A stretch of DNA of 64,000 bases from Halorubrum aquaticum (lineage in GTDB: Archaea; Halobacteriota; Halobacteria; Halobacteriales; Haloferacaceae): positions 124,001 to 188,000 of the forward strand of contig NZ_FOPZ01000001.1 in the NCBI RefSeq assembly GCF_900113615.1, in the 5' to 3' direction. Within the stretch, counting starts at the first letter, position 1. Each line of letters begins with the position of its first letter. The notes beneath the pieces were generated by a model. That model ran no database searches. It had not been told where the DNA came from and saw nothing but the letters and a program-made list of their open reading frames with translations. A program made the position numbers and the translations under genes. Below, piece after piece: positions 4,110-32,500 of this stretch.

Positions 4110-4134
4110 CGATTCCCGCCCCACGGTCGCGTAC

Positions 4135-5634: not shown

Positions 5635-5722
5635 GTCCCGTCGATCGTCCGCGTTCTCCTCCCGCCGAGGGAGAACGCACGAGCGGTTTTTACGCGGCGG
5701 TCCGGTAGCCTCGCCGAGGACC

Positions 5723-6226: not shown

Positions 6227-6249
6227 GTCGGGACGGCCCTCCTCCCGCC

Positions 6250-6350
6250 CGTCGCGTTTCGGTCGGCTCGGTCGGTCCGGCAGTCTCGGTCGGTTCGGTG
6301 GTTTCGGCCGATTCGATCAGTTCGGCCGGTTCGGTGGTTTCGGCCGGTTC
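6250..6350. repeat. Low-complexity GGTTCGG-type repeat tract
   Basis: Between the regulator and the DJ-1 gene lies a tract built from roughly 9-nt units of the form tcggttcgg. A perfect 20-bp direct repeat occurs at 6291-6310 and 6327-6346, a period of 36 bp. Read on the minus strand the units resemble the gaaccgaccg units at 62,814-62,921. No start codon or conserved gene is associated with the tract. Confidence 0.7.
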
Positions 6351-6434
6351 TCCGGGGACTGAGCGTCTGGAGGCGGGCGAGTACGCGACTGCCGGAGGGG
6401 GAACGCACATGGTCGACGGCGGCCTTCCGTCCGT

Positions 6435-10568: not shown

Positions 10569-11776
10569 CGGTCGCCACCTCCGGTCGAGGAACCGTCGCG
10601 GCCGGGAGCCATCGAGGGATCCGTCTCCGCGACCGCGTCCGCGTTCGAGACGGCCTCTGCGTTCGTCTCCGTTTCCACCTCCGCACTCGCGACCGCCTCC
10701 AGGTCCGTCCGGGCCGCCCCGGCGACCGCCCCGGGCGAGAGCGGCGCGTCCTCCCACGCCGGGAGGCGGGCGTCCGTCCCGGGCTCCGAGACGGCGTCGG
10801 CGTACGTCGCCACCTGATCGCGTTCGTCGGTGCGGTCGTACTCGAGCCCGTTGAACGCGGCGTCTGTCGCGTATCGGCGGATCAGCTCCTCCGCGGCCTC
10901 GCGGTACCGTCCGGGAAGCGTGTCGTACTCGACGTCGACGCCCGCGTCGGCGACGGCGCGGAGCGTCGCCTCGCCGACCGCCCGGCTCATGTCGGCGAGG
11001 CCGGTCGGACCGTCGACGGAGCGGTGGTCGTGTTCGTACCGGCCGAGGTCGACCTGTGCGCTCCCCGCGAAGCCGGCGTGTTCGAACGCTTCGCCGAGGG
11101 TGCCGATCTCGAGGCCCCAGCCGCGCTGGACGCGGAGCCTCGAGACGAGGTCGGTCGTCGCCGCGAACTCGCCGGCGAGCGCGTAGCGGAACGACTCGAG
11201 GTACGCCAGCACGTCCGCGTCGTGGGCGTCGGCGAGCGCCCGGACGAGCGGCCGGAAGAAGAGCCGAAACAGCCGCCCGTACAGCGCGCCGTCCTCGACG
11301 CGGGCGTAGTACCCCTTCGCGAACTCGTGGCCGTGGGCGATCGGGAAGAGGAGGCGGTTCACGAACGCGGGCGAGTACGTCGCCGTGTCGGCGTCGTGGA
11401 CGACGACGAACTCCTCCTCGAGTGCTCGCCCGAGCGCGAGCCACACGTCCCGCCCCTTCCCCCGATCGCCGTCGAGGCCGTGCTCGGCGAGCAGGTCGGC
11501 GAGCCGCGGCCCGTCACACCACAGCGTCTCCACGTCGAGGTCGAACCCGTCGAGCCAGGCCGCGAACGACCCGGCCCGGTCCGGCGTGGCCCGCAGGGGG
11601 ACGATCACCCTCGCGGGGTCGACGCTCTCGAGGGCGGTGAGGACCCGTTCGGCCGCGAGCGTCCCGTACTCGCGTTCCGTCATCGGCACCACGACGGCCG
11701 CGCGCCCGGTCGGCGCGTCGGGGCGGTGGTCCGTCAGCGCGTGGAGCGTGGTCACGCGCTCTTGTACGTACTCCAT
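10565..11776 (-). CDS. Glucosyl-3-phosphoglycerate synthase-like glycosyltransferase
   Basis: A 403-aa GT-A fold glycosyltransferase of the GpgS/GT81 type. The nucleotide-sugar site shows VVVHDADTATYSP (DxD motif) near residue 145, followed by a conserved GYYARVEDGALYGR segment and RVQRGWGLEIGTL, typical of GpgS-like enzymes. These transfer glucose to 3-phosphoglycerate on the way to the compatible solute glucosylglycerate; in haloarchaea the acceptor is often undetermined. The last ~70 residues are a low-complexity acidic tail (repeated AVxxAxA) outside the catalytic domain. It heads a two-gene operon with the DUF7109-like gene. Confidence 0.8.
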   Translation of the reverse strand: MEYVQERVTTLHALTDHRPDAPTGRAAVVVPMTEREYGTLAAERVLTALESVDPARVIVPLRATPDRAGSFAAWLDGFDLDVETLWCDGPRLADLLAEHGLDGDRGKGRDVWLALGRALEEEFVVVHDADTATYSPAFVNRLLFPIAHGHEFAKGYYARVEDGALYGRLFRLFFRPLVRALADAHDADVLAYLESFRYALAGEFAATTDLVSRLRVQRGWGLEIGTLGEAFEHAGFAGSAQVDLGRYEHDHRSVDGPTGLADMSRAVGEATLRAVADAGVDVEYDTLPGRYREAAEELIRRYATDAAFNGLEYDRTDERDQVATYADAVSEPGTDARLPAWEDAPLSPGAVAGAARTDLEAVASAEVETETNAEAVSNADAVAETDPSMAPGRDGSSTGGGDR

Positions 11777-13383: not shown

Positions 13384-14490
13384 TCACTCGAAGACGGCGT
13401 CGAACGCCGACGCGCCGAGCGGGTCGAACGTCCCCGCGGCGACGTCCTCCCGCAGGTGATCGGGATCCGTCGTCCCGACGAGCGAACAGGTGACGCCCGG
13501 CGCGCTGCGCGCGAAGTTGAGCGCGCGCTGGGCCGACGTGTCGCCCGAGAGCCGCGCGTCGACGCCCGCCGGGATCGACCCCGCCGCCGCCAGTTCGCCC
13601 CGTCCGATGCTCGCGCTCGTGACCACCGAGAGGCCGGCATCGTGGGCGAACTCGAGCGTCGAGACCGGCTCGCCGTCCGGGTCGTCCGGGGGGCGCTGGT
13701 TCGCCCGCGTGAACGCGTCGGCCATGTGGACGTTGAAGGGGAGCTGTATCGCCGCGAAGCCGTGGTCGTCGTCGGGGCCGACGGCCTCACCGGCCGCCTC
13801 CGCGCGGCCGAGGACTTCCCGGAGCGAGAGGTACGCGTCCGCGCCCTCGGCGACGCGGAACGCGTCCCACGTCGCGACGCCGTACGCCCCGACGTCGCCC
13901 GCGGTCCGCCGGCGCTCGAGGGTTTCGAAGGCGGCCTCCAGGGCGTCGTAGACCGCCTCCCGCGACCGCTCGGCGAGCTGCGTCTCCGGGTTGTGGACGT
14001 AGTAGCAGTCGATCCGATCGAGGCCGAGCCGGTCGAGCGAGCGGTCGAGCGACCGCTCCAGGTAGGCCGGCGCGAGACAGTGCGCGCCGACGAGGTCGGC
14101 CGGGTCGACGATCCCCGGTTCGACGAACCGCTCCCGGAGGTACGCGGCCGGGTCGTCGGGGCGCTCGCCGTCGAACGGGAGGAACCCGCCCTTCGTCGCC
14201 ACCACGACCGCCTCGCGGTCGACCGTCGCGTCCCGGATCGCCTCGCCGACGACCCGCTCGGACCGCCCGCACCGGTAGTTCACGGCGGTGTCGACGTGGT
14301 TCATTCCCGATTCGATCCCGAGTCGGACCGCCTCCCGGAGAGCGTCGTCGACGGCGTCGGTCGGCTCGCCGAGGTACGTCCCTAGGCCGACGCTGGAGGC
14401 GACCCCGAGTCCGAACCGCCTGAAGTAGGTCCGCCCGAAGGCGTCGCCGAACGCGTCGCGGTAGCCCCAGAGGGCGTCTCGGGTGGCCAT
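13384..14490 (-). CDS. Aldo/keto reductase
   Basis: A 368-aa TIM-barrel oxidoreductase. Catalytic tetrad positions are visible: Asp and Tyr in HVDTAVNYRCG, Lys in VVATKGG and His in YYVHNP. The pattern NYRCGRSERVVGEAI is typical of the general aldo/keto reductase family that reduces aldehydes or ketones with NADPH. The ATG at 14490 (MATRDALW) begins the conserved part; upstream codons to 14622 overlap the dacZ promoter region and are not conserved-looking. No neighbour suggests a pathway. Confidence 0.85.
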   Translation of the reverse strand: MATRDALWGYRDAFGDAFGRTYFRRFGLGVASSVGLGTYLGEPTDAVDDALREAVRLGIESGMNHVDTAVNYRCGRSERVVGEAIRDATVDREAVVVATKGGFLPFDGERPDDPAAYLRERFVEPGIVDPADLVGAHCLAPAYLERSLDRSLDRLGLDRIDCYYVHNPETQLAERSREAVYDALEAAFETLERRRTAGDVGAYGVATWDAFRVAEGADAYLSLREVLGRAEAAGEAVGPDDDHGFAAIQLPFNVHMADAFTRANQRPPDDPDGEPVSTLEFAHDAGLSVVTSASIGRGELAAAGSIPAGVDARLSGDTSAQRALNFARSAPGVTCSLVGTTDPDHLREDVAAGTFDPLGASAFDAVFE

Positions 14491-19625: not shown

Positions 19626-20489
19626 CTACGCCTCGGCGGCGCGCTCGATCGTTTCGGGATCGACGTCGGCCTCGAAGAGCCGCGCGCCGCAGGCCTCACA
19701 CGTCGCGGCGAGCACGTCGTACTGCCGACAACAGGACTCGACGACGGTCGTCCCGAGCGTCACGTCCCCGTCGCAGGTCGGACACGTCTCCACGAACAGC
19801 CGGAGGCTGCCGAGCAGTTCGCTGCGGCGCGCGGTCGAGAGGCCCTTCCAGTCGTCCCAGTACGCCTCGAGCACGTCCGCGGCGGCGAGGTCCGCGAGGA
19901 ACGCCTGTCGGGACTCCCACCGACCCGCCGGTTCGTCCTCGATGTACGCCGCGTAGGCGTGCCCGCGGTCGACTAAGGCGATCGATCCGGGATCGAACTC
20001 GAGGAACTCGGCGAGAGCCGCCTCGTCGGCGTCGGCGTCGGCGAGGGTCCGCGCCTCCCGTCGCCACGCGTCGTGGAAGCCCTCCTCGAGGACGAAGTCG
20101 TCGACCACCGGGTCCTCCAGGAGGACGCCCGCCTCGACGAGGGCGGTCGCGGGATCGAACGAGACCTCGTGATCGGACGGTACCTCGTCGGCGACCGCGC
20201 CGCCCGCGCCGCCTCCTCGCTCCGGGCCCTTGTCGAACAGGGCGAGCACGCGATCCGGGAGGTAGCGCTTCGTCAGCGCCGGCGTCCCGGGCACGAGGTA
20301 GCCACGGACCGCGATCGTCGCCGCGGCGACCGCGAACGTCGCGAGCGCCCAGCCGACCGAGACGGTCGCGACGACGAGCGCGAGCCCGGCGGCGATGACG
20401 ACGTTGACGATCGTACACGGCAGACAGCGGTTCGACCCGGTGTAACGCGGGTTCCTGAGCCAGACGGGAAGTCGCGATAACGCGTCCAT
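19626..20489 (-). CDS. Membrane protein with C-terminal zinc-ribbon-like cysteines
   Basis: A 287-aa protein of unknown function. It begins MDALSRLPVWLRNPRYTGSN, with CLPC near residue 25, then two membrane helices (~27-65). A soluble acidic middle follows. The end carries CPTC...CC...CEAC, a probable zinc site. An alternative ATG at 20516 would add nine residues. The RNPRYTGSNRCLPCT start looks conserved in haloarchaea from memory, but I cannot name a family. It converges on the helicase gene with only 9 nt between stops. Confidence 0.7.
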   Translation of the reverse strand: MDALSRLPVWLRNPRYTGSNRCLPCTIVNVVIAAGLALVVATVSVGWALATFAVAAATIAVRGYLVPGTPALTKRYLPDRVLALFDKGPERGGGAGGAVADEVPSDHEVSFDPATALVEAGVLLEDPVVDDFVLEEGFHDAWRREARTLADADADEAALAEFLEFDPGSIALVDRGHAYAAYIEDEPAGRWESRQAFLADLAAADVLEAYWDDWKGLSTARRSELLGSLRLFVETCPTCDGDVTLGTTVVESCCRQYDVLAATCEACGARLFEADVDPETIERAAEA

Positions 20490-20713: not shown

Positions 20714-21247
20714 TCACCCGAAGAGGGCGTTGAGGTACACCCATCGCTCCCTCCACAGCTGGTAGCCGAGGGAGGCCGCAAACGCGGCCAGAAAGAGGCT
20801 GACCCAGAGGATCGGTTCGAACGCGGCGACCATCGGGACGCCGATCAGCGCGGCGAGAACGACGAAAAGCGAGAGCGTGCCGAGCATGCTGTAGTACTCG
20901 CTCCAGGTGATCCCGTAGGGGGTGACGACCTCCATGTACACGTCGACGGAGCGGGCGTCCTCGGTGAGACGGATGGTCTTCCGATCGGACTCGTACTCGA
21001 CGATCCCGCGCCTGTCGAGTTTCGGGAGGTGCGTCTGGTGGAGCGAGTTGTAGACGCTGTTGCGGATGTTCTTCGGCGGCGGCGACTCTCCGGTCTCGTG
21101 TTCGGCGATGGTCTCCGCGAGGTCTCGCAGGGTGGTCGTTCCGACGGTGTCCTGGAGGTGTTTGATCGCTTGACGCCTGCGTTCGTTGCGAAGCAGGTCG
21201 TGTATCTCCGTTTCGGGAATCCCTCCGTATCGATCGGTTATCGCCAT
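20714..21247 (-). CDS. Membrane-anchored winged-helix regulator (DUF7344-like), paralogue 1
   Basis: A 177-aa protein of the haloarchaeal family I know as DUF7344. The N-terminal winged helix (residues ~10-95) has IHDLLRNERRRQAIKHL and the conserved HQTHLPKLDRRGIVEYES wing. A linker ending TPYGITWSEYYSML leads into two membrane helices (~120-170). The layout suggests a DNA-binding domain tethered to the membrane. It is read away from the adjacent surface-protein locus, and three paralogues close that locus on its other side, so regulation of the locus is a reasonable inference, not shown. Confidence 0.85.
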   Translation of the reverse strand: MAITDRYGGIPETEIHDLLRNERRRQAIKHLQDTVGTTTLRDLAETIAEHETGESPPPKNIRNSVYNSLHQTHLPKLDRRGIVEYESDRKTIRLTEDARSVDVYMEVVTPYGITWSEYYSMLGTLSLFVVLAALIGVPMVAAFEPILWVSLFLAAFAASLGYQLWRERWVYLNALFG

Positions 21248-21770
21248 GTGTCGTGGTCCCGGCGTCTATGAACCGGGTCAACGATACCCACACGTCCCCC
21301 CCAAGTAAGTAATCGCAACCTGTAGGGAGCCGGTTCGTGACAGGGTCGTCCAGAGAAACGACAAGCAACGCATGCCGGTTACTGTCGGGGGAACGCCGTC
21401 ACGACCGCGGTCCGGTCCGGATCCCCGCCGCTTCCGTGACCGGCACGTAATCGCTCGTTACGGTCTCGTTCCGCGAGTAGCGGACGCTTGATGGCGTGAC
21501 TTCCCGGAGAAAATCCCACGTGATCGACTGTCTGAGTTCCTCAGAGGGCGATCCCCGGGATCTCTCCGATCCTCGCCGATCCGCCGGAACTGGTCGGTCG
21601 TCTCGAAGGGTCAAACGGGTCTTTCACTCTGAAAAACGACCCGTTTCGGCGAGTAACCCAACGTTCGACCCGTCAACGGCCACGTTTCGTGGACAATGGT
21701 GTGATTGGCTAAGGGGGTGGGTGTTGTGGGCGTCTACCATGCCCGGCAGGAAACGTCGGGCGGATCCACG
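21248..21770. other. Divergent intergenic region upstream of the SipW/TasA-like locus
   Basis: A 523-nt stretch with no convincing gene; a 71-codon minus-strand frame (21399-21614) has no family-like features. It must hold the promoters of the regulator gene (minus) and the first surface-protein gene (plus). A/T-rich patches near 21,303-21,315 and 21,626-21,640 are candidate promoter or regulator sites. Immediately before the first surface gene, gcccg at 21741 and cgggc at 21757 could form a small hairpin. Confidence 0.5.
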
Positions 21771-23138
21771 ATGTCAGACGAGAAATTCGAACTGTCACGG
21801 CGGAACGCATTGATCGGTCTCGGAACGGTGGGTGCCGCATCCGCCGGTGCCGGGCTTGGAACGAGCGCGTACTTCAGCGATCAGGAGGAGTTCACCGGGA
21901 ACATGATGACCGCCGGCGAGCTCGATCTCGCCGTCGATTACGTCGTCCACGAGGACCAGGGCTCCGCGGGAAGTTACACCGTCAACAGCATCACGAACGA
22001 AGTGAACGGGACCGACCCAGGTGAGGATCTGACGGTCAACGGCGACGGGACGGCGATGAGCCAGAACCTCAGTGACGTAAAACCGGGTGACCACGGACAT
22101 TCGTATTTCTGTTTCACTATCGACGACAACCCGGCGTACATCTGGGCGTGTGGAGAGTTGGTGAGCACCAGCGAGAACGGCTATACGGAACCGGAGCCCG
22201 AGGACGACAACGGCGAAGGCGAGCTCGAGGAGAAGATCGAGGTCGACGTCACGTACTGCTACCTCAACGATCAGGGAGAACAGACGGACACCGGCGACAC
22301 GATCTTCTCCGGTTCGCTTCGAGAGGTGCTCGAGAGACTCCAGGCGGGACTCCCACTCGATGGAAGCGCGAACGGCGACGCGGCCGCGGGCGATCAGGCT
22401 GCCTTCGCCGGCACGAGCGGTGAGGACGGAGACAATCCGTGTCTCTGCTTCGACTGGGAACTCCCGACGACAGTCGGAAACGTGATCCAAGGAGACTCCC
22501 TCGAGTTCGACCTGTCGTTCCACGCGGTCCAGTCGCGTCACAACGACGGCGCACACAACCCGTGTGCGGACGAGACGTTCGTCTCGGAGGAAGTATACGT
22601 CCACCGTCAATCCGATCTCGGATTCGGAAACGAGCAGGTCGCCGTCTCGGACATCAACGCCGCCAGCGGGAGCGGTGCGACCGAGCTACGCCCGGTGACG
22701 ATCGACGTATCGTACGGTTCTCAGATGGTCGTGTACCGCATCCAGCCGACTATCGGCATGGAGGATCCGTCCAACATGGCGATCGGATTCGATCCGGAAG
22801 CCGACGGCGGAGCTTGGGACAGCCAAGTCCTCTGGCAGAGTGGCGGAACTGGGTTCACGTATCTCGAAAACGGCGGTATCTCGGACGATCCAGCCAACGT
22901 CACTGGCGTCTCGGCCAGCTACGATAGCGCGACGAACGTATTCATCGTCGCGATCGATCGCACGACGCTCGAGGCGAGTTCGAACGCTTACCGGTTCGCC
23001 ATGCAGTCGATCCACGAGCCGGGCGCGGCCAACAACCCGCTCAACCCGAGCGGATCGAACGCCCGTATCGACGCGGAGCTCCCGAGCGGGTTCGATTGGA
23101 GCGACACGAGCACCTGGCAGGACGACACGCTCGCATAG
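21771..23138 (+). CDS. SipW-type secreted TasA/camelysin-like protein with extra C-terminal domain
   Basis: A 455-aa secreted protein. The leader combines a twin-arginine motif (LSRRNALIGLG) with the SipW-type end GLGTSAYFSDQE, where SipW peptidases cut TasA-like precursors. The TasA-like domain (residues ~35-270) has the motif DVKPGDHGHSYF and the closing SFHAVQSRHNDG, both shared with the next paralogues. About 180 further residues form a beta-rich, acidic, cysteine-free domain unique to this member. In Bacillus, TasA forms biofilm fibres; archaeal homologues form bundling pili. The ATG at 21771 (MSDEKFELSRR) was chosen because the leader begins there. Confidence 0.82.
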   Translation: MSDEKFELSRRNALIGLGTVGAASAGAGLGTSAYFSDQEEFTGNMMTAGELDLAVDYVVHEDQGSAGSYTVNSITNEVNGTDPGEDLTVNGDGTAMSQNLSDVKPGDHGHSYFCFTIDDNPAYIWACGELVSTSENGYTEPEPEDDNGEGELEEKIEVDVTYCYLNDQGEQTDTGDTIFSGSLREVLERLQAGLPLDGSANGDAAAGDQAAFAGTSGEDGDNPCLCFDWELPTTVGNVIQGDSLEFDLSFHAVQSRHNDGAHNPCADETFVSEEVYVHRQSDLGFGNEQVAVSDINAASGSGATELRPVTIDVSYGSQMVVYRIQPTIGMEDPSNMAIGFDPEADGGAWDSQVLWQSGGTGFTYLENGGISDDPANVTGVSASYDSATNVFIVAIDRTTLEASSNAYRFAMQSIHEPGAANNPLNPSGSNARIDAELPSGFDWSDTSTWQDDTLA

Positions 23139-23172
23139 CATAGCCGACGAAACGCCCACTCGGACCACGAGT

Positions 23173-23255
23173 CTCCGGCGCTCCCGGAGGCTCGTGACGC
23201 GGCTTCGCCGCGGCGCGGCGGTTCGACTCCGCCGGTGGGTTTCCCCCTTGGGGGG
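23173..23255 (+). promoter_or_regulatory. Three-hairpin leader before the vWA/TasA-like gene
   Basis: Hairpin A: 6-bp stem 23173-23178/23184-23189, 5-nt loop. Hairpin B: 23216-23234, 6-bp stem with the 7-nt loop TTCGACT, identical to a tRNA T-arm loop. Hairpin C: CCCCC 23243-23247 with GGGGG 23251-23255, whose G strand runs into GGGGTGA, a Shine-Dalgarno-like tract just before the start. The same order A-B-C recurs at 24,954-25,012 before the next paralogue. A role in translation or mRNA processing is inferred. Confidence 0.6.
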
Positions 23256-23264
23256 TGAATGCAA

Positions 23265-24911
23265 ATGAGCGACAAAAACGGAATCGAGATATCACGGCGG
23301 AAGGCACTCGCCGGCATCGGCGGCATCGGCGTCGCGAGCGCCGGCGCCGGGATCGGCACGAGCGCCTACTTCAGCGACACGGAATCGTTCGACGGAAACA
23401 CGCTCACGGCGGGCGAACTGGACCTGAAGGTCGACTGGCAACAGTCGTACTACGGCGCGTCGGAGACGATCGTCCCGATCAACGCGTACCCGGACCACGA
23501 CGGTGACGGGCTCCAGTCGATCGACGACGACACCGAGTACGTACTCGACAACGCCGACGGCGAGAACGAGCCGATCGAGATCACGTGTAACGACCTCGAG
23601 AGTGGTGCGGACCTTCCAGAGGACGTCTTCGCCTCGCCGAACCGTACGCCGGACAACGGCGGACCGATCGACCAGCAGGACTCGCTCGTAGCACTCGACG
23701 ACGTGAAACCCGGCGATTGGGGAGAGGTCACGTTCAGTCTCCACCTCTGTGACAACCCGGGGTACGTCTGGCTCACCGCCGACAACTTCAGCCAGAGCGG
23801 CGGAGCGCTCACCGAGCCCGAGCAGGTCTCGATGAACGAAACGGACCCGAGTTCCGTCGTGGAGGGCGACGACACCGGCGACCTCGCAGACAATACGTAC
23901 GTCGAACTCTGGTACGACGACGACTGCGACAACATCCGAGATACGGGAGGCGAGCAGAACGAAGGTGAGGAACTCGACGTGGTCATCGTCATGGACCGGT
24001 CGGGTTCGATGAGCGGATCGCTCGACGAGGCACAGCAGGGCGCGAACGCGCTCATCTCCGCGCTCAGCCCTGACGATCAGGTCGGCCTCGTCTCGTTCTC
24101 GACGGGTGGATCGGACGGCAGCGGCGGCTCGAACGATTCGACGCTCGATGCCGGGTTGACCACCGATCACGGCTCGGTCCAGACTGCGGTCAACGGCCTC
24201 ACGTCCGGCGGACGGACGAACATGGAGGCGGCGGTCGAGCGCGCCCACGAGGAACTCACGGTTGCGGACACGTTCGCCGAATACGGCGAGAGCGGGGCTG
24301 CCCGCTCCGGTGCGCGGAAGATCATGGTCGTTCTCGGCGACGGGTCGCCGAACGAAGGGACGGACGTGACCGATTCGGACAACAACAGTCCGGTACAGGA
24401 GGCCAACAACGCGAAGAATGATGACAACATCCAGATCTTCACGATCGCCTACGGGACCGGGAGCCCGGGCGGGATACTGGGAGACATGGCCAGTGACCCC
24501 GCGGACTACCCCAACATCGATCAGTTCGCGTTCGACGCGGACGTCTCGGACGTCGTCTCCACGTTCCAGGAGATCGGGGGCGTCATCGGCGGCAGCGAGA
24601 CGCTGATCCTCGGGGAGGGCGACGGCGTACACAACAGTCCCGTTCCGCTCTCGGAGGCCATGGCGATCATGGAACGCAACGACGGCATGATCCCGCTTGA
24701 CGGAACCGGCGACATGGGATACGGCGAGGGTGCCACCTCCGAGGAACGCGATTGCTTCCCGGCGAATTCCCAGAAGTGTATCGGCATGAAGTGGTGGGTG
24801 CCGACCGACGTCGGCAACGAGATCCAGGGCGACTCGGTCAGCTTCGATCTCGGGTTCTACACTGAGCAGTGCCGGCACAACGACGGAGGCGGACAGTCCG
24901 CGTCATCGTAG
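23265..24911 (+). CDS. SipW-type TasA-like protein with inserted von Willebrand A domain
   Basis: A 548-aa secreted protein. The leader has ISRRKALAGIGG plus GTSAYFSDTES. The TasA-like domain starts with LDLKVDWQQSYYG and contains DVKPGDWGEVTFSLHLCDN. At YVELWYDDDCDN it is interrupted by a vWA domain (residues ~240-445) with a complete MIDAS: D244-x-S246-x-S248, T318 and D359. The TasA-like fold then resumes and ends SVSFDLGFYTEQCRHNDG. MIDAS sites bind a divalent metal and protein ligands, so this subunit may mediate adhesion. An ATG at 23259 is possible; 23265 (MSDKNG) matches the start of the next paralogue. Confidence 0.85.
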   Translation: MSDKNGIEISRRKALAGIGGIGVASAGAGIGTSAYFSDTESFDGNTLTAGELDLKVDWQQSYYGASETIVPINAYPDHDGDGLQSIDDDTEYVLDNADGENEPIEITCNDLESGADLPEDVFASPNRTPDNGGPIDQQDSLVALDDVKPGDWGEVTFSLHLCDNPGYVWLTADNFSQSGGALTEPEQVSMNETDPSSVVEGDDTGDLADNTYVELWYDDDCDNIRDTGGEQNEGEELDVVIVMDRSGSMSGSLDEAQQGANALISALSPDDQVGLVSFSTGGSDGSGGSNDSTLDAGLTTDHGSVQTAVNGLTSGGRTNMEAAVERAHEELTVADTFAEYGESGAARSGARKIMVVLGDGSPNEGTDVTDSDNNSPVQEANNAKNDDNIQIFTIAYGTGSPGGILGDMASDPADYPNIDQFAFDADVSDVVSTFQEIGGVIGGSETLILGEGDGVHNSPVPLSEAMAIMERNDGMIPLDGTGDMGYGEGATSEERDCFPANSQKCIGMKWWVPTDVGNEIQGDSVSFDLGFYTEQCRHNDGGGQSASS

Positions 24912-24953
24912 ACGCGTAGTGAGAGCGATCATCGCCCGACACGGGCCGTGCGT

Positions 24954-25012
24954 CCGGGGACGGACCCCGGGCGTCGGCGGTTCGACTCCGCCGACGGGTC
25001 TCCCCTTTGGGG
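24954..25012 (+). promoter_or_regulatory. Three-hairpin leader before the third TasA-like gene
   Basis: Hairpin A: CCGGGG 24954-24959 with CCCCGG 24965-24970. Hairpin B: 24972-24996, a perfect 9-bp stem with the T-arm-type loop TTCGACT. Hairpin C: CCCC 25002-25005 with GGGG 25009-25012, followed by GGTGG before the ATG at 25023. The order and loop match those at 23,173-23,255 while stem lengths differ. Confidence 0.6.
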
Positions 25013-25022
25013 GTGGACACGA

Positions 25023-26543
25023 ATGAGCGACAAAAGCGGACTCAAGATATCACGACGGAAGGCTCTCGCCGGCATCGGCGGCATCGGCGTCGCGAGCGCC
25101 GGTGCCGGTCTCGGCACGAGCGCCTACTTCAGCGACACCGAATCGTTCGAGGACAACGCCATCACGGCGGGCGAGCTCGACCTGAAGGTCGACTGGCAAC
25201 AGACGTACGACGGGCCGGAAGACGATTCGTTCCCGGCGTACGGCGCTGCGGGGTACCCCTGGGTGAACGCTCACCCCGACGAGGGAGAGGGCAACGACCC
25301 GAACGGGATCCAGTCTCTGGACTCCGACCAGTACGACTCGGTTCCCGACGACGGAGTCGTGACCTACGAGGACTATGGAGCTAACATCCAGAGCTACCTC
25401 ACGTGTGAGACGCTGGACCACGACTACGACTTCGGACCGAACGAGAGCCTCATCGAACTCCAGGACGTCAAGCCGGGCGACAGCGGCGAGATCACGTTCA
25501 GCTACCACCTGTGTGACAACCCCGGCTTCGTGTTCTTCTGTGCGGATCTCATCGAAGCAGGGGAGGGCGGGAACCCGGAACCCGAGGAGAACCACTCCGA
25601 CGACACCGGTCCCGCCGATGAAACCGTCACCGACCCGACCGGCGGTGACGAGATCGAACTGCTGGACGCGATTCGCGTCCAGACGTGGTACGACATCGAC
25701 TGCGACAACGAGTTCGACATCGTCGAGGACCCCCTCGTCGGCAGCCAGCCGACCTCGCTCCGGAACTTCCTGAGCGCGTTCGAGGACGCCGAGAACGACA
25801 ACTGTGTCCTGCTCGATCCCACGGCGTACCCGGGTATCAGTACCCCTGGATCGGAGAAGGACTGCGTCGAGTTGGGCGGCGTCGAATTCACCGCTGACGG
25901 GTTCAACGTCATCGGAGACGGGCAAGTCATCAGAGTCGAGCCCGGTGCCTCGGGAGACCCGAACGACAATCTCCAGGTGTGGGTAAACCTGGTGGACCCG
26001 ACCAACGGGGAGAACGTCATCATCAAGTTCGGCGAGATGGAGGTGATAGGGGGGTACGTCGAAACCTACGGAGACGGAGACCTGACCAACGTCACTCAGT
26101 TCGACTGGGACGTCATCGAACCGCCGAGCGCGGGCGGAAACGTGGTCGTCGGCAACCACGGAAACGCCGACGGCCAGGAGTTCGTGTCCAGTGACGTCGG
26201 TATGTGTGAGTCGGTGCTGACCGATGCAGGCGGGGACACGTCGACGGCCGACTTGGTCGGGAACGCGTGCTCGCGCGGGGAAAACGACGTCGGGCCGATG
26301 GACATGGATGCGGTGACGTCATTCGAACTCAGTTACTGTGCCCCTGGGTCTGGTGAGTCGCGGCCGTTCCCGGACGAGGTGACGTTCTGCCTCGGATTCG
26401 AGTGGACGCTGCCCGAGAGTGTCGGGAACGAGATCCAGTCCGACTACGTGAACTTCGATCTCGGCTTCTACACCGAGCAGGCACGCCACAACGACACTCC
26501 GGGTTCGACACTCAGAGACGACGCGAACTCGACCGGCACCTGA
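25023..26543 (+). CDS. SipW-type secreted TasA/camelysin-like protein
   Basis: A 506-aa paralogue of the preceding protein without the vWA insert. Leader: MSDKSGLKISRRKALAGIGG then GLGTSAYFSDTE. The mature part has LDLKVDWQQTYDGPEDD, the motif DVKPGDSGEITFSYHLCDN, the segment RVQTWYDIDCDNEFD (where its neighbour carries the vWA insertion) and the end VNFDLGFYTEQARHNDT. It is acidic and has about ten cysteines, mostly paired in sequence, which suggests disulfides outside the cell. Probably a fibre or surface-layer-associated subunit. Start chosen by leader conservation and the hairpin leader just upstream. Confidence 0.83.
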   Translation: MSDKSGLKISRRKALAGIGGIGVASAGAGLGTSAYFSDTESFEDNAITAGELDLKVDWQQTYDGPEDDSFPAYGAAGYPWVNAHPDEGEGNDPNGIQSLDSDQYDSVPDDGVVTYEDYGANIQSYLTCETLDHDYDFGPNESLIELQDVKPGDSGEITFSYHLCDNPGFVFFCADLIEAGEGGNPEPEENHSDDTGPADETVTDPTGGDEIELLDAIRVQTWYDIDCDNEFDIVEDPLVGSQPTSLRNFLSAFEDAENDNCVLLDPTAYPGISTPGSEKDCVELGGVEFTADGFNVIGDGQVIRVEPGASGDPNDNLQVWVNLVDPTNGENVIIKFGEMEVIGGYVETYGDGDLTNVTQFDWDVIEPPSAGGNVVVGNHGNADGQEFVSSDVGMCESVLTDAGGDTSTADLVGNACSRGENDVGPMDMDAVTSFELSYCAPGSGESRPFPDEVTFCLGFEWTLPESVGNEIQSDYVNFDLGFYTEQARHNDTPGSTLRDDANSTGT

Positions 26544-26571
26544 TCGACTCCGTCGATCTCCCTAAGGGGAG
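26543..26571 (+). promoter_or_regulatory. Two-hairpin leader before the fourth TasA-like gene
   Basis: The hairpin atcgac/gtcgat (26543-26557, loop tcc) overlaps the stop of the previous gene. It is followed by ctccc/ggggag (26558-26571, loop taag) containing a Shine-Dalgarno-like GGGGAG 12 nt before the ATG. It is a shortened version of the B-C part of the two leaders upstream. Confidence 0.45.
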
Positions 26572-26583
26572 CACACACGCCAC

Positions 26584-27294
26584 ATGACGAACGCACCGAT
26601 CTCGCGACGACGGCTGCTCGCCGGGCTTACCGGCGGGAGCGCCGCCGCCCTGGCGGGGGTCGCACTGTCGACCGGCCGGAGCCGCGCGTACACGGACACG
26701 ATGCCGCTTCGGACGGAGGCGATCGAGGGGCTCGTCCTCGACTGGCGGGAGACGTACAACGGGACGGTACTCGAGGACTCGACCGCGGGCACCGCGACCC
26801 CCACGCCGTCGGGGTCGGCCATCGCGCTCGGAAACGTCCTCCCGGGCGACGCCGGGTCGCTGAGCGTCCGCCTCCGGATCGAGACCGACGGGTCGGGGGG
26901 ATCCGACGCCCCGGCGGTCGAACCCGAACTCACGTTCTCGCTGACGGACGGCGCGGAGTCGACCGCGATACGGGAGTTCCTCGACGTCGCGGTGTGGTAC
27001 GACACCGGGCTCCTCGACGTCGACGCGCTGGGCTCGGACAACGCCGACCGCGACCCCGGCGAACGGCTCGTCCACCCCGACGCGAGCGGGACGTTCGGGG
27101 AGGTCGCGGAGGCGCTCGGAGACGGCGTCGTCCTCGACGCCTCGCCGAACACGCCCGGCGCGAGCTGTCTCGGAGCCGACGGGGCGGTGACGGTCACGTT
27201 CGGATGGGCGTTCCCCCCGAACCGGGAGGGGATCAACGCGGCACAGGGCGAGACGATCGAGTTCGACCTGGAGTTCGATGTCACCGAGTGTTAA
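26584..27294 (+). CDS. Small TasA-like secreted protein
   Basis: A 236-aa secreted protein with a twin-arginine leader (ISRRRLLAGLTGG) ending RSRAYTDT, a weaker form of the SipW cleavage pattern. The mature part starts LVLDWRETYNGTV, aligned with the KVDWQQTYDG of its neighbours, has the motif NVLPGDAG in place of DVKPGD, the segment VAVWYDTGLLD, and ends IEFDLEFDVTEC without the Q-RHN signature. It may be a minor or capping subunit. It follows the larger paralogue by 40 nt and is probably cotranscribed. Confidence 0.78.
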   Translation: MTNAPISRRRLLAGLTGGSAAALAGVALSTGRSRAYTDTMPLRTEAIEGLVLDWRETYNGTVLEDSTAGTATPTPSGSAIALGNVLPGDAGSLSVRLRIETDGSGGSDAPAVEPELTFSLTDGAESTAIREFLDVAVWYDTGLLDVDALGSDNADRDPGERLVHPDASGTFGEVAEALGDGVVLDASPNTPGASCLGADGAVTVTFGWAFPPNREGINAAQGETIEFDLEFDVTEC

Positions 27295-27473
27295 CGCGGT
27301 AAGCCCGGTCCGAGTATCGCCACGTACCTCGTATAACGACCTATTGAACGATGCTAACGAGCGATTCAACGAATCCGCCGATCGACGGAGGATCCTCGAG
27401 GACGAACAGCCGGCTCATACACAAGTGGGTGCTCGAGGAAGGGGGATCCGAGGATCTGACGGGGAGATCACGC

Positions 27474-28103
27474 ATGTCCGAGGATGAGGAGTACTCGCGG
27501 CGACGGCTGCTCCGGACGCTCACGGGGACCGGCGCGGTCGGCGCGGCCGGCGGTGCCGCGACCGGCGCGTACCTCTCCGACTGGGAGCCGATCGGCGAGT
27601 CCCTGTTCCGAACGGGATCGTTCGGCCTCGAGATCGCGGCCGTTCCGCGCGACGGAACCAGGGATCCCCCCGCGATCTCGACGGACGACTTCCGGAACGT
27701 CACCACGGTACCGATCGAGTTTCCCGAGATGGAACCCGGAGACACGGGCGTTCTCCGGACCGGAACGCGACTCTGTGAGAGCCCGGGATGGGTCCGGCTG
27801 CGAGCCGAGTCGACGAACGAATCCGGACTCGCGTCGTGGCTCGACGTCACGCTCATGCGACGGCCGAGCTGTGACGGGGGCGGTAGAGAGCTGTTCGTTG
27901 GCACGCTCGCCGGTCTGCTCGATCGGTACGACGAGGCGAGAGTGATCGGAGACGGCTGCCACGGCTGTGAGCCGTCGTGTCTCGACCTCGAGTGGAAACT
28001 CGACGAGGAGGTCCCCGCCGCCTACGCCGGGATGTCGCTGTCCTGCCGGTTCGAGTTCACCGCCGTACAGTGTCGACACATCCAGAACCCCGAGGAACCA
28101 TGA
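27474..28103 (+). CDS. Small TasA-like secreted protein
   Basis: A 209-aa member of the same set. Leader: YSRRRLLRTLTGTG followed by GAATGAYLSDWEP, a divergent SipW-type site. Mature part: FGLEIAAVPRDG, the motif EMEPGDTGVLRTGTRLCESPGW and the ending LSCRFEFTAVQCRHIQN, matching the Q-C-RH close of the larger paralogues. Seven cysteines are present. Codons from 27351 to 27473 in the same frame precede the leader and were excluded. Its stop overlaps an ATG of a possible 39-aa ORF leading to the signal peptidase gene. Confidence 0.78.
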   Translation: MSEDEEYSRRRLLRTLTGTGAVGAAGGAATGAYLSDWEPIGESLFRTGSFGLEIAAVPRDGTRDPPAISTDDFRNVTTVPIEFPEMEPGDTGVLRTGTRLCESPGWVRLRAESTNESGLASWLDVTLMRRPSCDGGGRELFVGTLAGLLDRYDEARVIGDGCHGCEPSCLDLEWKLDEEVPAAYAGMSLSCRFEFTAVQCRHIQNPEEP

Positions 28104-28219
28104 AACCGAACCCGACCACGTCGAAACGAGATCGAGAACGCACCGAGACGACGCCGAGGGCGCCGGTCACGTCCGTCTCCTCGGAGTCGAACGGGGGTGA
28201 ACGTCCGGCATGGCGGTGA
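28100..28219 (+). CDS. Possible 39-aa coupling ORF before the signal peptidase
   Basis: An ATG overlaps the upstream stop (ATGA) and the frame runs 39 codons (MKPNPTTSKRDRERTETTPR...), ending 10 nt inside the signal peptidase gene. It is basic, hydrophilic and resembles nothing known. It could be a leader that passes ribosomes from the TasA-like gene to the peptidase gene, or a chance frame. The overlaps at both ends are the only support. Confidence 0.3.
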   Translation: MKPNPTTSKRDRERTETTPRAPVTSVSSESNGGERPAWR

Positions 28220-29376
28220 GCCTCCCGGAACGCGGACGGGTGCTCGACTGGCTCGGGTTGCTGTTGTTGCTCGCCGTCGTGGTCCCGTTCGTCGTCTACG
28301 CGGTTCCGGGCGTCGTCGGCGCGGAGGGGAGCTACGTCGTCTTGTCCGGGAGCATGGAGCCCTCCATCGGTGTGGGCGACGTCGTGATCGTCGACGGCGC
28401 GGATCCGACCGAGATCGAGGAGGGGGACGTCATCACCTACCTCCGCAGCGACGCGGAGACGCCCACCACCCATCGCGTCATCGAGGTCACGGAGCGGAAC
28501 GGGGAGCGAGCCTTCATAACCCAGGGCGACGCCAACGACGACCCGGACGCCGCGCCCGTCCCGGCGTCGCGCGTCATCGGGGAAGTCGCCGTCGCGGTCC
28601 CGTACATGGGATACGTGATCGAGTTCGTGAACACGCCGGCCGGCTTCCTCGCGCTCGTCGTGGTCCCGTTCGTCCTGCTCGCGCTCTCGGAGGTCCACTC
28701 CGTGCTCGCGGGCGACGGGTCCGGCTCGACCGACTCGGTCGAGGGGGGCGACGAGAGCGACCGGCCGGGCGAACCCGACCCCGATCGATCGGCGAACGGT
28801 CCGGACGGTCCGGACGCTCCGAGCGCCGAGGCCGCCGAGATGCCGCCGATGGGACCGTTCGAGACCGCGGCGGTCGACGGCGACGGTGAACCCGGGGGCC
28901 GTGCGGCGGGTCCCGTGGACGACGGCGTGAACGGCGCGGCGAGCGCGAGCGAGGGCGCGGGCCCGATCGAGGGCGCGAACACGGCGAACACGAGCGAAGA
29001 CGCCGGGACGGGCGAGAACGCGATCGCGTTCACGCGAACGGACCTCCGCCTCTCGGGTCTCGTTCTCTCGGGGACCACCGTGTACACCGGCTGGGTGGTG
29101 TCCCACGTCCAGACCACGTGGTCGTTCGCGGTCGCGTTCGGGTCCGGGTTCGGACTCCTGCTCGTCGGCGGGATGTACTACGCCGCCGGGGAGACCGACC
29201 CCGAAGACGACCTCCCTGCCGAGGAGCGGGCGGACGACCGACATCGCGACGTCGACGACGGCGTTCGCCCCACAGCACCGCACGCGTCCGTCCGAACCGA
29301 CGGGGAGGGGGGATCGGGACCGACGTCCCCGGACCTCGGCATCGAAGACGGGACGCCGGAGGTGGACGATGAGTGA
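28210..29376 (+). CDS. SipW-like (ER/archaeal-type) signal peptidase I with membrane-anchored extension
   Basis: A 388-aa membrane peptidase. Helix 1 spans residues ~12-35; the active-site serine is S48 in VLSGSMEPSIGVGD, and His replaces the bacterial lysine at H88 in TTHRVIEV, as in SipW, Sec11 and archaeal enzymes. A QGDANDDPD segment supplies conserved Asp. A second helix (~137-160) is followed by a long acidic, Gly/Ala-rich extension with two more helices (~280-325). In Bacillus, SipW cuts TasA and TapA precursors; its place directly after five SipW-type substrates argues for the same job here. Confidence 0.9.
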   Translation: MAVSLPERGRVLDWLGLLLLLAVVVPFVVYAVPGVVGAEGSYVVLSGSMEPSIGVGDVVIVDGADPTEIEEGDVITYLRSDAETPTTHRVIEVTERNGERAFITQGDANDDPDAAPVPASRVIGEVAVAVPYMGYVIEFVNTPAGFLALVVVPFVLLALSEVHSVLAGDGSGSTDSVEGGDESDRPGEPDPDRSANGPDGPDAPSAEAAEMPPMGPFETAAVDGDGEPGGRAAGPVDDGVNGAASASEGAGPIEGANTANTSEDAGTGENAIAFTRTDLRLSGLVLSGTTVYTGWVVSHVQTTWSFAVAFGSGFGLLLVGGMYYAAGETDPEDDLPAEERADDRHRDVDDGVRPTAPHASVRTDGEGGSGPTSPDLGIEDGTPEVDDE

Positions 29377-29986
29377 CGACACGCCGTCGAAGGCCCTTGC
29401 GCTCGCCTCCGCGGCCACGTTGGTGCTCGCGGCGATCTCGGGCGGGGCCGTGACGTACGCGTCGTTCACGGACGCCGGAAACGTCGCCGTGACGTTCTCC
29501 GTCGGGAACGTCCCCGAGGATCCGGGTCCCGAGTTCGCGGACGACGGCACGCCGACCGTGGAGACGAGTTCGACCGGAAACGAGACCGGAGGCGACGCGA
29601 ACGGGGACGCCGAGACGGATCAAAGATCGGACGAGGACTCGGTCGACGACCCCAGTCCGGATGGGTCGACGAACGAGACCACCACGACCGACTCAGCCAC
29701 CAACGAGACCACGACGAACGATTCCACCGCGACTGAGTCCACTACAAACGAGACCACTACGAACGAGACCACCACGACCGACTCAGCCACCAACGAGACC
29801 GCCACGACCGAGTCCACTACGAACGAAACCACCACGACCGACACCGCCACCAACGACACGGTGACCAGTGATCGAACCGCGGCTCCGATCGGGGCGGAAT
29901 CGACGAGCCGGCGTGGCGGTCGTGAGGACGCGTCGTTCCGTCTCGGGGCCCGACGCGACGGCGTATCGGGTGACGGAGAACGATGA
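29369..29986 (+). CDS. Thr-rich, sequon-rich secreted protein with SipW-like leader
   Basis: A 205-aa protein overlapping the peptidase gene by 8 nt. Its leader (KALALASAATLVLAAISGG then VTYASFTDAGNVAVTFSVGNV) lacks twin arginines but ends in the ASFTD pattern of SipW substrates. After 60 acidic residues comes a stretch of about 70 residues made of NETTTT/DSATNETT units with about eight N-x-T sequons, likely N- and O-glycosylated as a rigid stalk. The end is Arg-rich, with no membrane anchor visible. It could be a fibre anchor or accessory comparable in position to TapA. Confidence 0.78.
   Translation: MSDDTPSKALALASAATLVLAAISGGAVTYASFTDAGNVAVTFSVGNVPEDPGPEFADDGTPTVETSSTGNETGGDANGDAETDQRSDEDSVDDPSPDGSTNETTTTDSATNETTTNDSTATESTTNETTTNETTTTDSATNETATTESTTNETTTTDTATNDTVTSDRTAAPIGAESTSRRGGREDASFRLGARRDGVSGDGER
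29669..29800 (+). repeat. In-gene direct repeats in the Thr-rich segment
   Basis: A perfect 42-bp direct repeat occurs at 29669-29710 and 29759-29800 (90-bp offset), with shorter degenerate accacgaccga units between and after. Such tracts can change copy number by slippage and so alter stalk length. Confidence 0.8.
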
Positions 29987-30150
29987 CGCCGAAGGACCCG
30001 TCCGACGACCCGCGCCGTGCCGGTATCGGTCGTGCTCGAGTCGACGGCGGCCGGATCGGGGGGCGATTCGTGACGAAACGGAACGTGCTCCGGCTGTTGA
30101 TCCTGCTTTTGGTCCTCGTCCCGGTGGTCGATTACCTCCTCAGCCTGTGA
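29983..30150 (+). CDS. 55-aa basic single-span membrane protein in the signal peptidase operon
   Basis: This small gene starts at an ATG overlapping the stop of the Thr-rich gene (ATGA). The N-terminal 35 residues are basic and polar (MTPKDPSDDPRRAGIGRARV..., then TKRNVLR). The last ~20 are a single hydrophobic helix (LLILLLVLVPVVDYLLSL). Basic residues before the helix predict the N-terminus inside the cell. A GTG at 30070 would give a 26-aa form. It fits no family I recognise. Translational coupling to the SipW-like peptidase and its presumed substrate suggests an assembly or processing helper. Confidence 0.6.
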   Translation: MTPKDPSDDPRRAGIGRARVDGGRIGGRFVTKRNVLRLLILLLVLVPVVDYLLSL

Positions 30151-30252
30151 GTGCGGTTCTTCTCCGTCCGGTCACGGTCGGCTCTGACCGGTCCACGTCG
30201 GGGCGAACCGAACCGGCGCGGGCCGTATCGGATCGCGTCCGGCGTCGTCCGA

Positions 30253-30825
30253 TCACTCCTCGTCGAGGTCGGAACCGAGCCGGTTTCGGTTCGTCTCCCG
30301 GACGCACGCGGCCGACGAGATCAGGAACGCGAGGACGATGAGTCCCAGGAGGAGAACCACCGAGATCGAGTCGAACGGCGGGAGGGCGAGCGCCTCCATC
30401 ACGAGGGCGGCGACGCCGATGAGCGAGAGCCCGAGGAAGTAGTAGCTCCAGGGGATCCGACTCTCGGGGACCGGTTCGAGATAGAACTCCACCTGCCGGG
30501 CTCTCGCGGTGAGTTCGACCCGTCCGGTCTCGGAGTCGTAGTGGATCACCCCGCGGTCCTCGAGCATCGGGAGGTGCGTCTGCGTCAGTCCGGCGTACAC
30601 GCGCTTGCGCTGGACCGAGGTGAGGTCCTCGGCGGTCGTGTCGTTCTCACGCGCCGCCACGTACTCGACGAGGTCCCCGAACGCGACCGGACCGCCGTCG
30701 TGGGCCTTCAGGTATCTGAGGACGTGTCGTCGCCGCTCGTTACGGAGGATCTCGAAGACCGTCTCACGGGGCAACGCTCCCTCCGCGGCCGCGGATCGGT
30801 TCGGTCGGCGGCGGAGCGAGCGCAT
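30253..30825 (-). CDS. Membrane-anchored winged-helix regulator (DUF7344-like), paralogue 2
   Basis: A 190-aa protein. Winged helix at ~20-115: VFEILRNERRRHVLRYL, then QRKRVYAGLTQTHLPMLEDR, then GVIHYDSETGRVEL. The linker VPESRIPWSYYFLGLSLI leads into two membrane helices (~125-175) and a short charged tail. It is the second gene of a minus-strand pair, 10 nt after paralogue 3, and converges on the surface-protein operon. The juxtamembrane WSYYFLGLSL block is shared by all four membrane members in the window and may be a signalling or packing element. Confidence 0.86.
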   Translation of the reverse strand: MRSLRRRPNRSAAAEGALPRETVFEILRNERRRHVLRYLKAHDGGPVAFGDLVEYVAARENDTTAEDLTSVQRKRVYAGLTQTHLPMLEDRGVIHYDSETGRVELTARARQVEFYLEPVPESRIPWSYYFLGLSLIGVAALVMEALALPPFDSISVVLLLGLIVLAFLISSAACVRETNRNRLGSDLDEE

Positions 30826-30835
30826 CCCGGATCAC

Positions 30836-31432
30836 TCAGGTTTTCCGGGGCGTTCGATGAACGTCGTTTCGACGGGTTCGATACGTGTGGACGCTCGAGG
30901 AGACGAGAAACGCCGCGACGACGACCGCCACGGTCGACAGCGAGACGGCACCGTAGACCGTCTCGACGAACGCCGATCCCAGAAAGAGCAGCGCCGCGAT
31001 GAGCGAGAGCCCGAGGTAGTACTGTCCCCACGGGATCTCGTGTTCGGGGACGTAATCGAGGTAGAGCTGGACGTCCTCCATCCCGTCGGTCGGACGCAAC
31101 TCGCCCCGTCGGCTGTCGTACTCGATCACCCCGGTCTCGTGGAGCTTCGGGAGGTGCGTCTGTCGGAGCGCCGTGTACACCCGCTTTCGGTCCGCGTACT
31201 CGATCTCGACGACGTCCTTGTCGTTCTCCCATGCGGCGATCGTGTCGACCATCTCGGAGAGATGGAGGGATTCCTCCGACGACTCCCGGAGGTACTCGAG
31301 CACGTACCGCCGCCGTTCGTTACAGAGGACGTCGAAGATCTCGTCGCGCGTCGGCCCCTCCGAGTCGGTCGAACCGGCGTCTGAGGGGCTCGCCGCTTCG
31401 TTCGAGGCGGTGAGTTCCGTTGATCCCCCCAT
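30836..31432 (-). CDS. Membrane-anchored winged-helix regulator (DUF7344-like), paralogue 3
   Basis: A 198-aa protein with an N-terminal Ser/Glu-rich tail (~25 residues), a winged helix (IFDVLCNERRRYVLEYL; RKRVYTALRQTHLPKLHETG; VIEYDSRRGEL) and two membrane helices (~135-185) after IPWGQYYLGLSLI. It is the promoter-proximal gene of the pair with paralogue 2. The minus-strand TATA-like CTTTAGTG near 31,459-31,466 lies about 28 nt before the ATG, within an unusually A/T-rich block that may hold regulator sites. Confidence 0.86.
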   Translation of the reverse strand: MGGSTELTASNEAASPSDAGSTDSEGPTRDEIFDVLCNERRRYVLEYLRESSEESLHLSEMVDTIAAWENDKDVVEIEYADRKRVYTALRQTHLPKLHETGVIEYDSRRGELRPTDGMEDVQLYLDYVPEHEIPWGQYYLGLSLIAALLFLGSAFVETVYGAVSLSTVAVVVAAFLVSSSVHTYRTRRNDVHRTPRKT

Positions 31433-31909
31433 CGATCCGGAGACTACAGAATGGGGTCACTAAAGTTTAATTAATTTCACATTAGTCAGACAATAATTAG
31501 CGTGACGGGACTTGGATCGCTGACGAGCCGGTCACGCGATCAGTCGAGAAACGACCTCTACACGCCGAATATCGACGGATCGAAGGCGATGTACTCCCCG
31601 AAGGGTTCCGGATTGAGGGACGAGTCCCTTGGTCGTCCGTTCCCGTCGGTCGTATAAGAAAAGAAACGATAGGAACTGTTAATATGTGACGAGGTGTCAA
31701 GTACCTCAACGACGCCGCGGCGGGGTCCACGGAGCGCGGTCGCCTGCGGATCCGTCGCAGAGTCACGCGGGGACGGAAACGCCCCGCCGATCGACGCCTC
31801 CCGTAGTGAACGACGACTGACCGGCCGCGATGAAACGGCCTTTCCGCCTACCGGCGACCGGATCGGTCCGATCGACCTCGACGGGCGAAAGGAAGACGAG
31901 TACCCCGAG
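31433..31909. other. Divergent A/T-rich regulatory region between two regulator genes
   Basis: 477 nt without a supported gene. Two A/T-rich islands stand out in this GC-rich genome: 31,460-31,500 (aagtttaattaatttcac, then agacaataattag) and 31,655-31,690 (ataagaaaagaaacgata, then gttaatatg). The first is placed to drive paralogue 3 on the minus strand. The second could drive paralogue 4, which would then have a leader of about 200 nt or start at an upstream GTG (31694). Confidence 0.55.
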
Positions 31910-32500
31910 ATGGATCAGATATCAACGGAACGAAGCGACGTACCGGACGGCGACCACGACGGATCCGCGGACCCGACACCGACCGACGGCGACTCGGATC
32001 GGATCCCGACCGACGAGGTGTTCGCGCTGTTGAGCAACGGACGACGCAGACACGTCCTGCGGTTCCTCTCCGAGAACGGCGGGGAGATCAAGCTCCGCGA
32101 GTTGGCGACGACGATCGCCGCCGAGGAGAACGGCGTGGACCCGGTCGAGGTGACCTACACCCAGCGGAAGCGCCTCTACACCTCGCTGTACCAGTCGCAC
32201 CTTCCACGGATGGAGCGCAGCGGCGTGATCGAGTACGACCGAAACACCGGGCTGATAACGCTCGCACCGGCTGCGGACGACTTCGAGGCGTACCTCGAGG
32301 TGGTCGGCGAGAACGAGTTCACCTGGTCGGAGTTCTACCTCGGACTGACGGGACTCTTCGCCGCGGTCACCCTCGCGTACGCCACCGGAACGCCGCCGTT
32401 CACCGCGCTCGGCCCGGCCGTCGTGATGGCCGCGATGACGTTCCTCCTGCTCGTCTCGGCGGTCGCTCACGTCCGATACACGCGCGGCCGGCGACTCTGA
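31910..32500 (+). CDS. Membrane-anchored winged-helix regulator (DUF7344-like), paralogue 4
   Basis: A 196-aa protein: acidic N-terminal tail (~35 residues), winged helix (VFALLSNGRRRHVLRFL; QRKRLYTSLYQSHLPRMERS; GVIEYDRNTGLITL), the juxtamembrane ENEFTWSEFYLGLTGLF and two membrane helices (~135-185). It is divergent from paralogue 3. The frame is open up to a GTG at 31694, but those codons are Arg/Ser-rich and unlike family members, so the ATG at 31910 is preferred. The next gene is a photolyase 71 nt downstream, probably separate. Confidence 0.84.
   Translation: MDQISTERSDVPDGDHDGSADPTPTDGDSDRIPTDEVFALLSNGRRRHVLRFLSENGGEIKLRELATTIAAEENGVDPVEVTYTQRKRLYTSLYQSHLPRMERSGVIEYDRNTGLITLAPAADDFEAYLEVVGENEFTWSEFYLGLTGLFAAVTLAYATGTPPFTALGPAVVMAAMTFLLLVSAVAHVRYTRGRRL

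Follow-up and report, generated by a model that had tools for sequence, protein, structure and literature searches.

A tandem array of TasA-like genes with a SipW-type signal peptidase in Halorubrum aquaticum, probably encoding an extracellular fiber

Five genes for secreted proteins stand in tandem in the haloarchaeon Halorubrum aquaticum, followed by the gene of a signal peptidase, and the question raised by this locus is whether its products build an extracellular fiber of the type known from TasA, a biofilm protein of Bacillus. The window that we analyzed is a stretch of 64,000 nucleotides (bases 124001-188000 of contig 1 of a draft genome of 3.18 Mb), and positions are counted from its first letter; the genes are lettered A to L. 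A first-pass annotation of this DNA had proposed a TasA-like surface-fiber locus with a dedicated SipW peptidase. We consider it probable that the locus encodes such a fiber, with subunits exported by twin-arginine translocation (Tat), cleaved by the peptidase G and joined by donor-strand exchange, and with special roles for two partner proteins, E and H. Fiber formation by the proteins B to F is what we infer from their homology.

The common core and the putative subunit interface

With the revised starts used here, the array comprises B (21771-23138), C (23265-24911), D (25023-26543), E (26584-27294) and F (27474-28103), all on the plus strand. These five tandem proteins have one common core. 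It reaches to about position 22565 in B, is joined in C by an inserted vWA domain (PF00092, 1e-18, and a structural model) and in D by an insert unlike that of C, and forms a compact subunit in F. The family of SipW-dependent signals, TIGR04088, matches B (1e-7), C (1e-6) and D (1e-7), so that the likeness of the leaders is not due to chance; genome-wide it gave nine matches, all of them in the window cluster or in one paralogous cluster. Both E and F were aligned by hhalign at 99.9% to a core sequence profile (E values of 5e-38 and 2e-36, respectively).

A closing QxRH motif had been reported for four of the proteins and was found in exactly these, as QSRH in B, QCRH in C and F and QARH in D, while E is without it. 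Two further motifs, a leader ending in AYFSD or a variant and the pattern D/E-x-K/E-PGDxG, stood for the same four. The leaders of B, C and D end in AYFSD and that of F in AYLSD, and the second pattern reads SDVKPGDHG in B, DDVKPGDWG in C, QDVKPGDSG in D and PEMEPGDTG in F; in E, however, AYTDT is a real departure and GNVLPGDAG lies outside the described form. An alignment of 64 array-type proteins has as invariant positions the pair R10 and R11, A33 before the cleavage site, D37 of FSD, F41, the PGD and the closing Gln and Arg, and the Phe at P2' is nearly invariant. PF12389 matched 46 of these 64 proteins at an E value below 0.01, mostly over the leader. Within the window, where the gathering score of this family is 22.5, D scored 23.2, B 22.5 and C 20.5, and E and F gave no match.

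In a structure model of mature B, confidence is high in the core, at about residues 60-235, and is lacking in the C-terminal tail. A Foldseek search of this B core against 350,542 PDB chains placed TasA at ranks 1 and 2 (8aur, 8e-5; 5of2, 9e-4), which bears out the suggested TasA fold, and VIA-align gave the TasA entries Z scores of 9.2, 9.2 and 8.8, compared to 6.8 for the next entry. The archaeal bundling pilus AbpA (7ueg), itself a TasA-like donor-strand fiber, was a weak match to the B core that lay inside the unrelated background (Z 5.5; root-mean-square deviation, 7.0). Independently, a core profile of 33 insert-free sequences, searched against the PDB, found TasA at E values of 0.007-0.008 over most of the core. 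Sialoadhesin and nanobody matches to this profile were rejected, since they cover only a short PGD-like Ig stretch, whereas TasA alone spans nearly the full core. Searching the PDB directly with the sequence of C yielded mainly vWA and integrin proteins and no TasA.

In the profile alignment, KPGD is matched to P62 of TasA and the closing Gln to Q232, with mature TasA numbered from residue 28. Together with F29, these two residues make a conserved contact between TasA protomers (PMC10151520). Because the leader Phe, the Pro of PGD and the closing Gln correspond to F29, P62 and Q232, we take them to be the fiber interface of the array proteins.

Two partner proteins depart from this pattern in different ways. 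All 25 orthologues of E lack both QxRH and an FSD donor motif in the usual position, which are present in 104 and 96, respectively, of 104 array subunits, a set whose selection pattern included the closing Gln, so that the leader count alone is an independent comparison with E. Judged by these motifs, E looks like an acceptor without a donor and is a candidate terminal subunit. The second partner, H (29369-29986, plus strand; overlapping G by 8 nucleotides and the following gene I by 4), has a SipW-type leader (TYA/SFTD, no twin Arg) and a tail rich in Thr, Asn, Asp and Glu. It matches TIGR04088 weakly (19.3 bits), and its Ser plus Thr content of 34% agrees with its earlier description as a Thr-rich SipW-like substrate. 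Of 25 genes that follow the peptidase, 22 encode low-complexity proteins; 20 of these 22 proteins have a SipW-like cleavage motif, and 2 have the RR pair. A donor without an acceptor has been proposed for TapA (PMC9674648). Since its donor-like leader sits on a low-complexity tail without the core, H looks by analogy like such a donor and is a candidate TapA-like initiator; no protein of the locus was recognized as a TapA homologue.

The array proteins might instead be SipW-processed surface proteins of the TasA fold that act as monomers or patches, as display adhesins, without forming a donor-strand fiber. The large size of the display modules, with some subunits consisting mainly of inserts and tails, would agree with such a function. 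We hold this to be improbable, as the most conserved residues are the leader Phe, the Pro of PGD and the closing Gln, which are located between protomers in TasA fibers (PMC10151520), and an array with partners such as E and H fits polymerization.

Display modules and their exchange

The cores bear predicted display modules at two fixed places, as an insert after the WYDxDCDN strand and as a C-terminal tail. A large insert was present at the first place in 57 of the 104 array subunits, and 28 have a tail of at least 100 residues. DxSxS occurs in 41 of the 57 inserts, making vWA-like domains the commonest kind; a Pfam search of the 64 aligned proteins found vWA in 21 of them and PKD, Laminin_B and beta-helix once each. 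The vWA domain of C (23976-24542, plus strand; residues 240-428; PF00092, 1e-18) is inserted after WYDDDCDN and has an intact metal ion-dependent adhesion site (D244RSGS, GGRTNM and LGDG). Its best structural match was the type V pilus tip Mfa5 (6tnj; Z 23.1), and the pilus adhesin SpaC was also among the matches. A vWA domain on a fiber component is thus shared with Mfa5 of Porphyromonas and SpaC of Lactobacillus; the shaft subunits and the assembly machinery of these pili are of other kinds. The variable tail of B (22566-23138, plus strand) and the insert of D (about 25719-26366, plus strand) have no Pfam match.

Both of these modules coincide with breaks in homology to Halorubrum cibi, which together with Halorubrum halodurans is the closest named relative by locus. 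DNA homology to H. cibi ends at 22565 and returns at 23214, after the B gene, and it breaks again at 25718 and returns at 26367. The cores of the window and H. cibi are 88% identical and the tails 27%. Another pair of loci (L060 and L079) gave 92% for the core and 28% for the tail, and the reverse was seen for L047 and L079 (core, 80%; tail, 88%); shuffled sequences, as a control, gave 18 to 29%. The comparisons indicate that tails move independently of the cores and are swapped among close relatives, at break points that are sharp in the DNA.

Replacement of tails over conserved cores, in clusters that are patchy in occurrence and in some cases located on megaplasmids, might also reflect conflict. 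The surface proteins would then vary in the service of virus evasion or contact-dependent antagonism, and the TasA core would act only in secretion and anchoring. This reading appears quite unlikely to us, as no toxin-like or immunity gene was recognized in the clusters examined and the commonest insert, vWA-like in 41 of 57 cases, is an adhesion-type domain. A function in conflict would be compatible with a fiber, and the two are not exclusive. Going further, we tentatively propose that a Tat-exported donor-strand fiber is a constant scaffold on which tail and insert cassettes are recombined between conserved core segments, so that cells vary the heads displayed by the fiber, with H as a donor-only initiator and E as an acceptor-only terminator; this wider proposal is possible but much less secure than the fiber itself.

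Proposed processing, export and assembly

The gene G (28210-29376, plus strand) encodes a signal peptidase I of the SipW/endoplasmic reticulum (ER) type with a long C-terminal extension (TIGR02228, E value of 1e-35; NF046067, E value of 1e-29). Its score on TIGR02228 was 123 bits (cut-off, 51.85), whereas on the Bacillus SipW equivalog NF046067 it reached 103 bits against a cut-off of 190, so that G is related to, but is not, the Bacillus SipW equivalog. Residues S48 and H88, to which the first-pass annotation had pointed, are both there and do not vary among 37 aligned peptidases. In a sample of 145 haloarchaeal genomes (peptidase cut-off, at least 60 bits), a SipW-type peptidase and SipW-type substrates were found together in 62, both were missing from 79, and only one of the two was present in 2 and 2. 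The two were also present or absent jointly within genera, the congeners G037 and G071 being without both. The expectation that these genes would be found together in relatives was thus borne out, genome by genome for the peptidase and its substrates and in dozens of haloarchaeal loci for the genes as a group. In Bacillus subtilis, SipW processes TasA, which has a Phe at P2' (PMC10269814). These observations support G as a peptidase dedicated to the array substrates, on the evidence of gene position and co-occurrence. It is very improbable that G serves as a second signal peptidase for housekeeping and stands beside the substrates by accident: archaeal general peptidases are also of the ER type and match TIGR02228 too, but the genome has three other, more distant peptidases, and the SipW-type peptidase is absent from 79 of the 81 genomes without SipW-type substrates.

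The twin-arginine pair of the subunit leaders, invariant in the 64 aligned proteins, is followed by a weakly hydrophobic stretch, and the spacing from RR to FSD is constant in 96 of the 104 subunits. At a threshold that the leader of H passed, no membrane segment was predicted in the subunit leaders, as is expected of Tat leaders. Export of the array subunits by Tat is likely on these grounds. Genes of the tatA type lie about 3 kb upstream of three arrays (L050, 4435-4653; L070, 3676-3882; L168, 2444-2668). Outside Halobacteria (L161, L163 and L164), TasA-like genes with a signal peptidase nearby have leaders without the arginine pair, resembling those of the general secretory (Sec) route, and because of this a switch from Sec to Tat in Halobacteria is the simplest reading. 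One of these loci, L161, has four TasA-like genes in tandem (3057-6589) with Sec-like leaders and an adjoining signal peptidase. The PDB entry 9p0a ("Pilin") has a twin-arginine leader, RRNVLVGLG...GTGAF, like those of B to D; the leader alone matches, hinting at another Tat-exported pilus family.

A mechanism can be proposed from these elements. B, C, D and F would be exported folded, probably via Tat, as self-complemented monomers; TasA monomers are self-complemented before assembly, which suits this route (PMC9674648). G would cut before YFSD or its variant, so that a donor strand with its Phe at P2' becomes free at the N-terminus, and this strand would complete the beta-sandwich of the next subunit by donor-strand exchange through the conserved Phe/Pro/Gln pocket. 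Inserts and tails (vWA in C; other modules in B and D) would be displayed on the fiber, where adhesion is their probable function. H, in which a donor-like segment is joined to a tail that is disordered and probably glycosylated, may start or anchor the fiber as TapA does, E, without a donor motif, may end it, and the regulator A would control the array.

Several observations count against this picture. Sequence identity to TasA is 15 to 18%, and the TasA equivalog NF046066 reached 16 bits, against a cut-off of 450, so that these proteins are TasA-like and not TasA itself. The B model has a mean predicted local distance difference test score of 61 (about 90 in the core, below 65 in the N-terminal donor segment), and such a model is unable to show strand exchange. 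The co-occurrence of peptidase and substrates is highly significant by Fisher's test (6e-36), a statistic that ignores phylogeny. The general Tat signal model TIGR01409 was below its cut-off on the leaders, for which reason we can only infer the Tat route. Finally, a YTYAQ-like stretch is common in E orthologues, and E may simply use it as another donor sequence.

The locus resembles tapA-sipW-tasA of B. subtilis (8aur, 5of2) in its jelly-roll core, in a SipW-type peptidase encoded next to the substrates, in the Phe at P2' of the mature protein, in the PGD and closing Gln that belong to the interface between protomers and in an accessory protein with a donor-like N-terminus. Unlike that system, it has several subunits, with twin-arginine leaders, variable tails and inserts of the vWA and other kinds, as well as a DUF7344 regulator and a partner, E, that has the core but no donor motif. 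The sipW-calY1-bc_1280-calY2 operon of Bacillus cereus likewise combines SipW with more than one camelysin/TasA-type substrate (PMC10151520); its published description includes neither display inserts nor genes of the E or H type. Archaeal TasA-like fibers are known from Pyrobaculum, according to papers that cite them. The "more elaborate" version anticipated by the first-pass annotation was found in the Tat-like leaders, exchangeable display domains, an adhesin-type vWA insert and two specialized partner proteins. Twin-arginine leaders, display modules at two fixed places and the exchange of tails between relatives go beyond known TasA systems; new with respect to the earlier annotation are the inserted vWA domain of C, the arginine pair of the leaders, a second cluster and a neighboring gene at 19626-20489. 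A literature search, with subscription journals mostly outside it, found no paper that joins TasA with haloarchaea or names DUF7344, and NCBI labels single genes as "SipW-dependent-type signal peptide-containing"; as far as we found, the leader has already been recognized and the system apparently has not. If our proposal is correct, TasA/SipW-type fibers would occur in about 44% of the sampled haloarchaea, a donor-strand fiber could be built from folded subunits exported by Tat, in keeping with the self-complemented TasA monomer, and the fiber would be a platform for exchangeable adhesins. Factors of haloarchaeal biofilm formation, mating and aggregation would then become testable in tractable laboratory strains.

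Regulators, neighboring genes and related clusters

The gene A (20714-21247, minus strand) is divergent from the array and encodes a DUF7344 winged-helix regulator (PF24035, E value of 2e-29) with a C-terminal membrane segment (117-161). A divergent DUF7344-like gene lies directly upstream of 32 of 37 arrays. Three further DUF7344 regulators follow the array: J (30253-30825, minus strand; PF24035, 1e-27), K (30836-31432, minus strand; 9e-29) and L (31694-32500, plus strand; 5e-28; N-terminus uncertain). The three congeners that were examined keep them at the same site, and none was seen in arrays elsewhere; the genome has 17 DUF7344 matches. Of the regulator set once counted as part of the system, A thus belongs to it, whereas J, K and L are conserved only at the site. 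A perfect 9-bp inverted repeat upstream of B was considered as an operator between regulator and array and rejected, as it is not common to other loci.

The 55-amino-acid protein I (29983-30150, plus strand) has one membrane segment (29-55), as had been described; it is found at this site in Halorubrum and is kept in congeners without E to H. On the other side of the array, the gene at 19626-20489 (minus strand) encodes a 287-amino-acid membrane protein with an N-terminal CxxC and a Cys-rich, zinc-ribbon-like C-terminus, for which no Pfam or NCBIfam family was above cut-off. It is a recurrent array neighbor, with homologues next to more than 20 further loci in the set. A dedicated component was not accepted, since the family occurs in 127 of the 145 genomes, often without a TasA-like array; the link is positional only.

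Genes of the related loci were called with a custom codon-usage caller, and the NCBI annotation of two plasmid-borne clusters agrees in layout with these calls. The genome carries a second complete TasA-like cluster (L010; contig 11, 376-11994), the counterparts of which share 35 to 51% protein identity with those of the window. Its order is a divergent DUF7344 gene, a B-type subunit, further TasA-like subunits (two with vWA-type inserts), E, F, the peptidase and H, and the order regulator, array, E, F, peptidase and H recurs across haloarchaeal loci. At the same site in L083, L084/L090 (H. cibi) and L091 (H. halodurans), B, C, D and I are there and E to H are absent. The block from E to H (26521-29980) is thus missing from these three Halorubrum relatives, in which DNA homology returns at 29981, at the start of I. 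Since one SipW-type peptidase is retained in the relatives G008 and G014, at another place in the genome, processing in trans is likely in them.

A phage origin of the locus was considered and rejected, as a search of 50,697 phage records gave no match. Megaplasmids of Halorubrum ezzemoulense (L167) and Haloarcula halophila (L168) carry complete clusters. In L166, a transposase-like gene (10415-11257) lies inside the TasA-like array, and the peptidase gene (13701-14222) looks interrupted.

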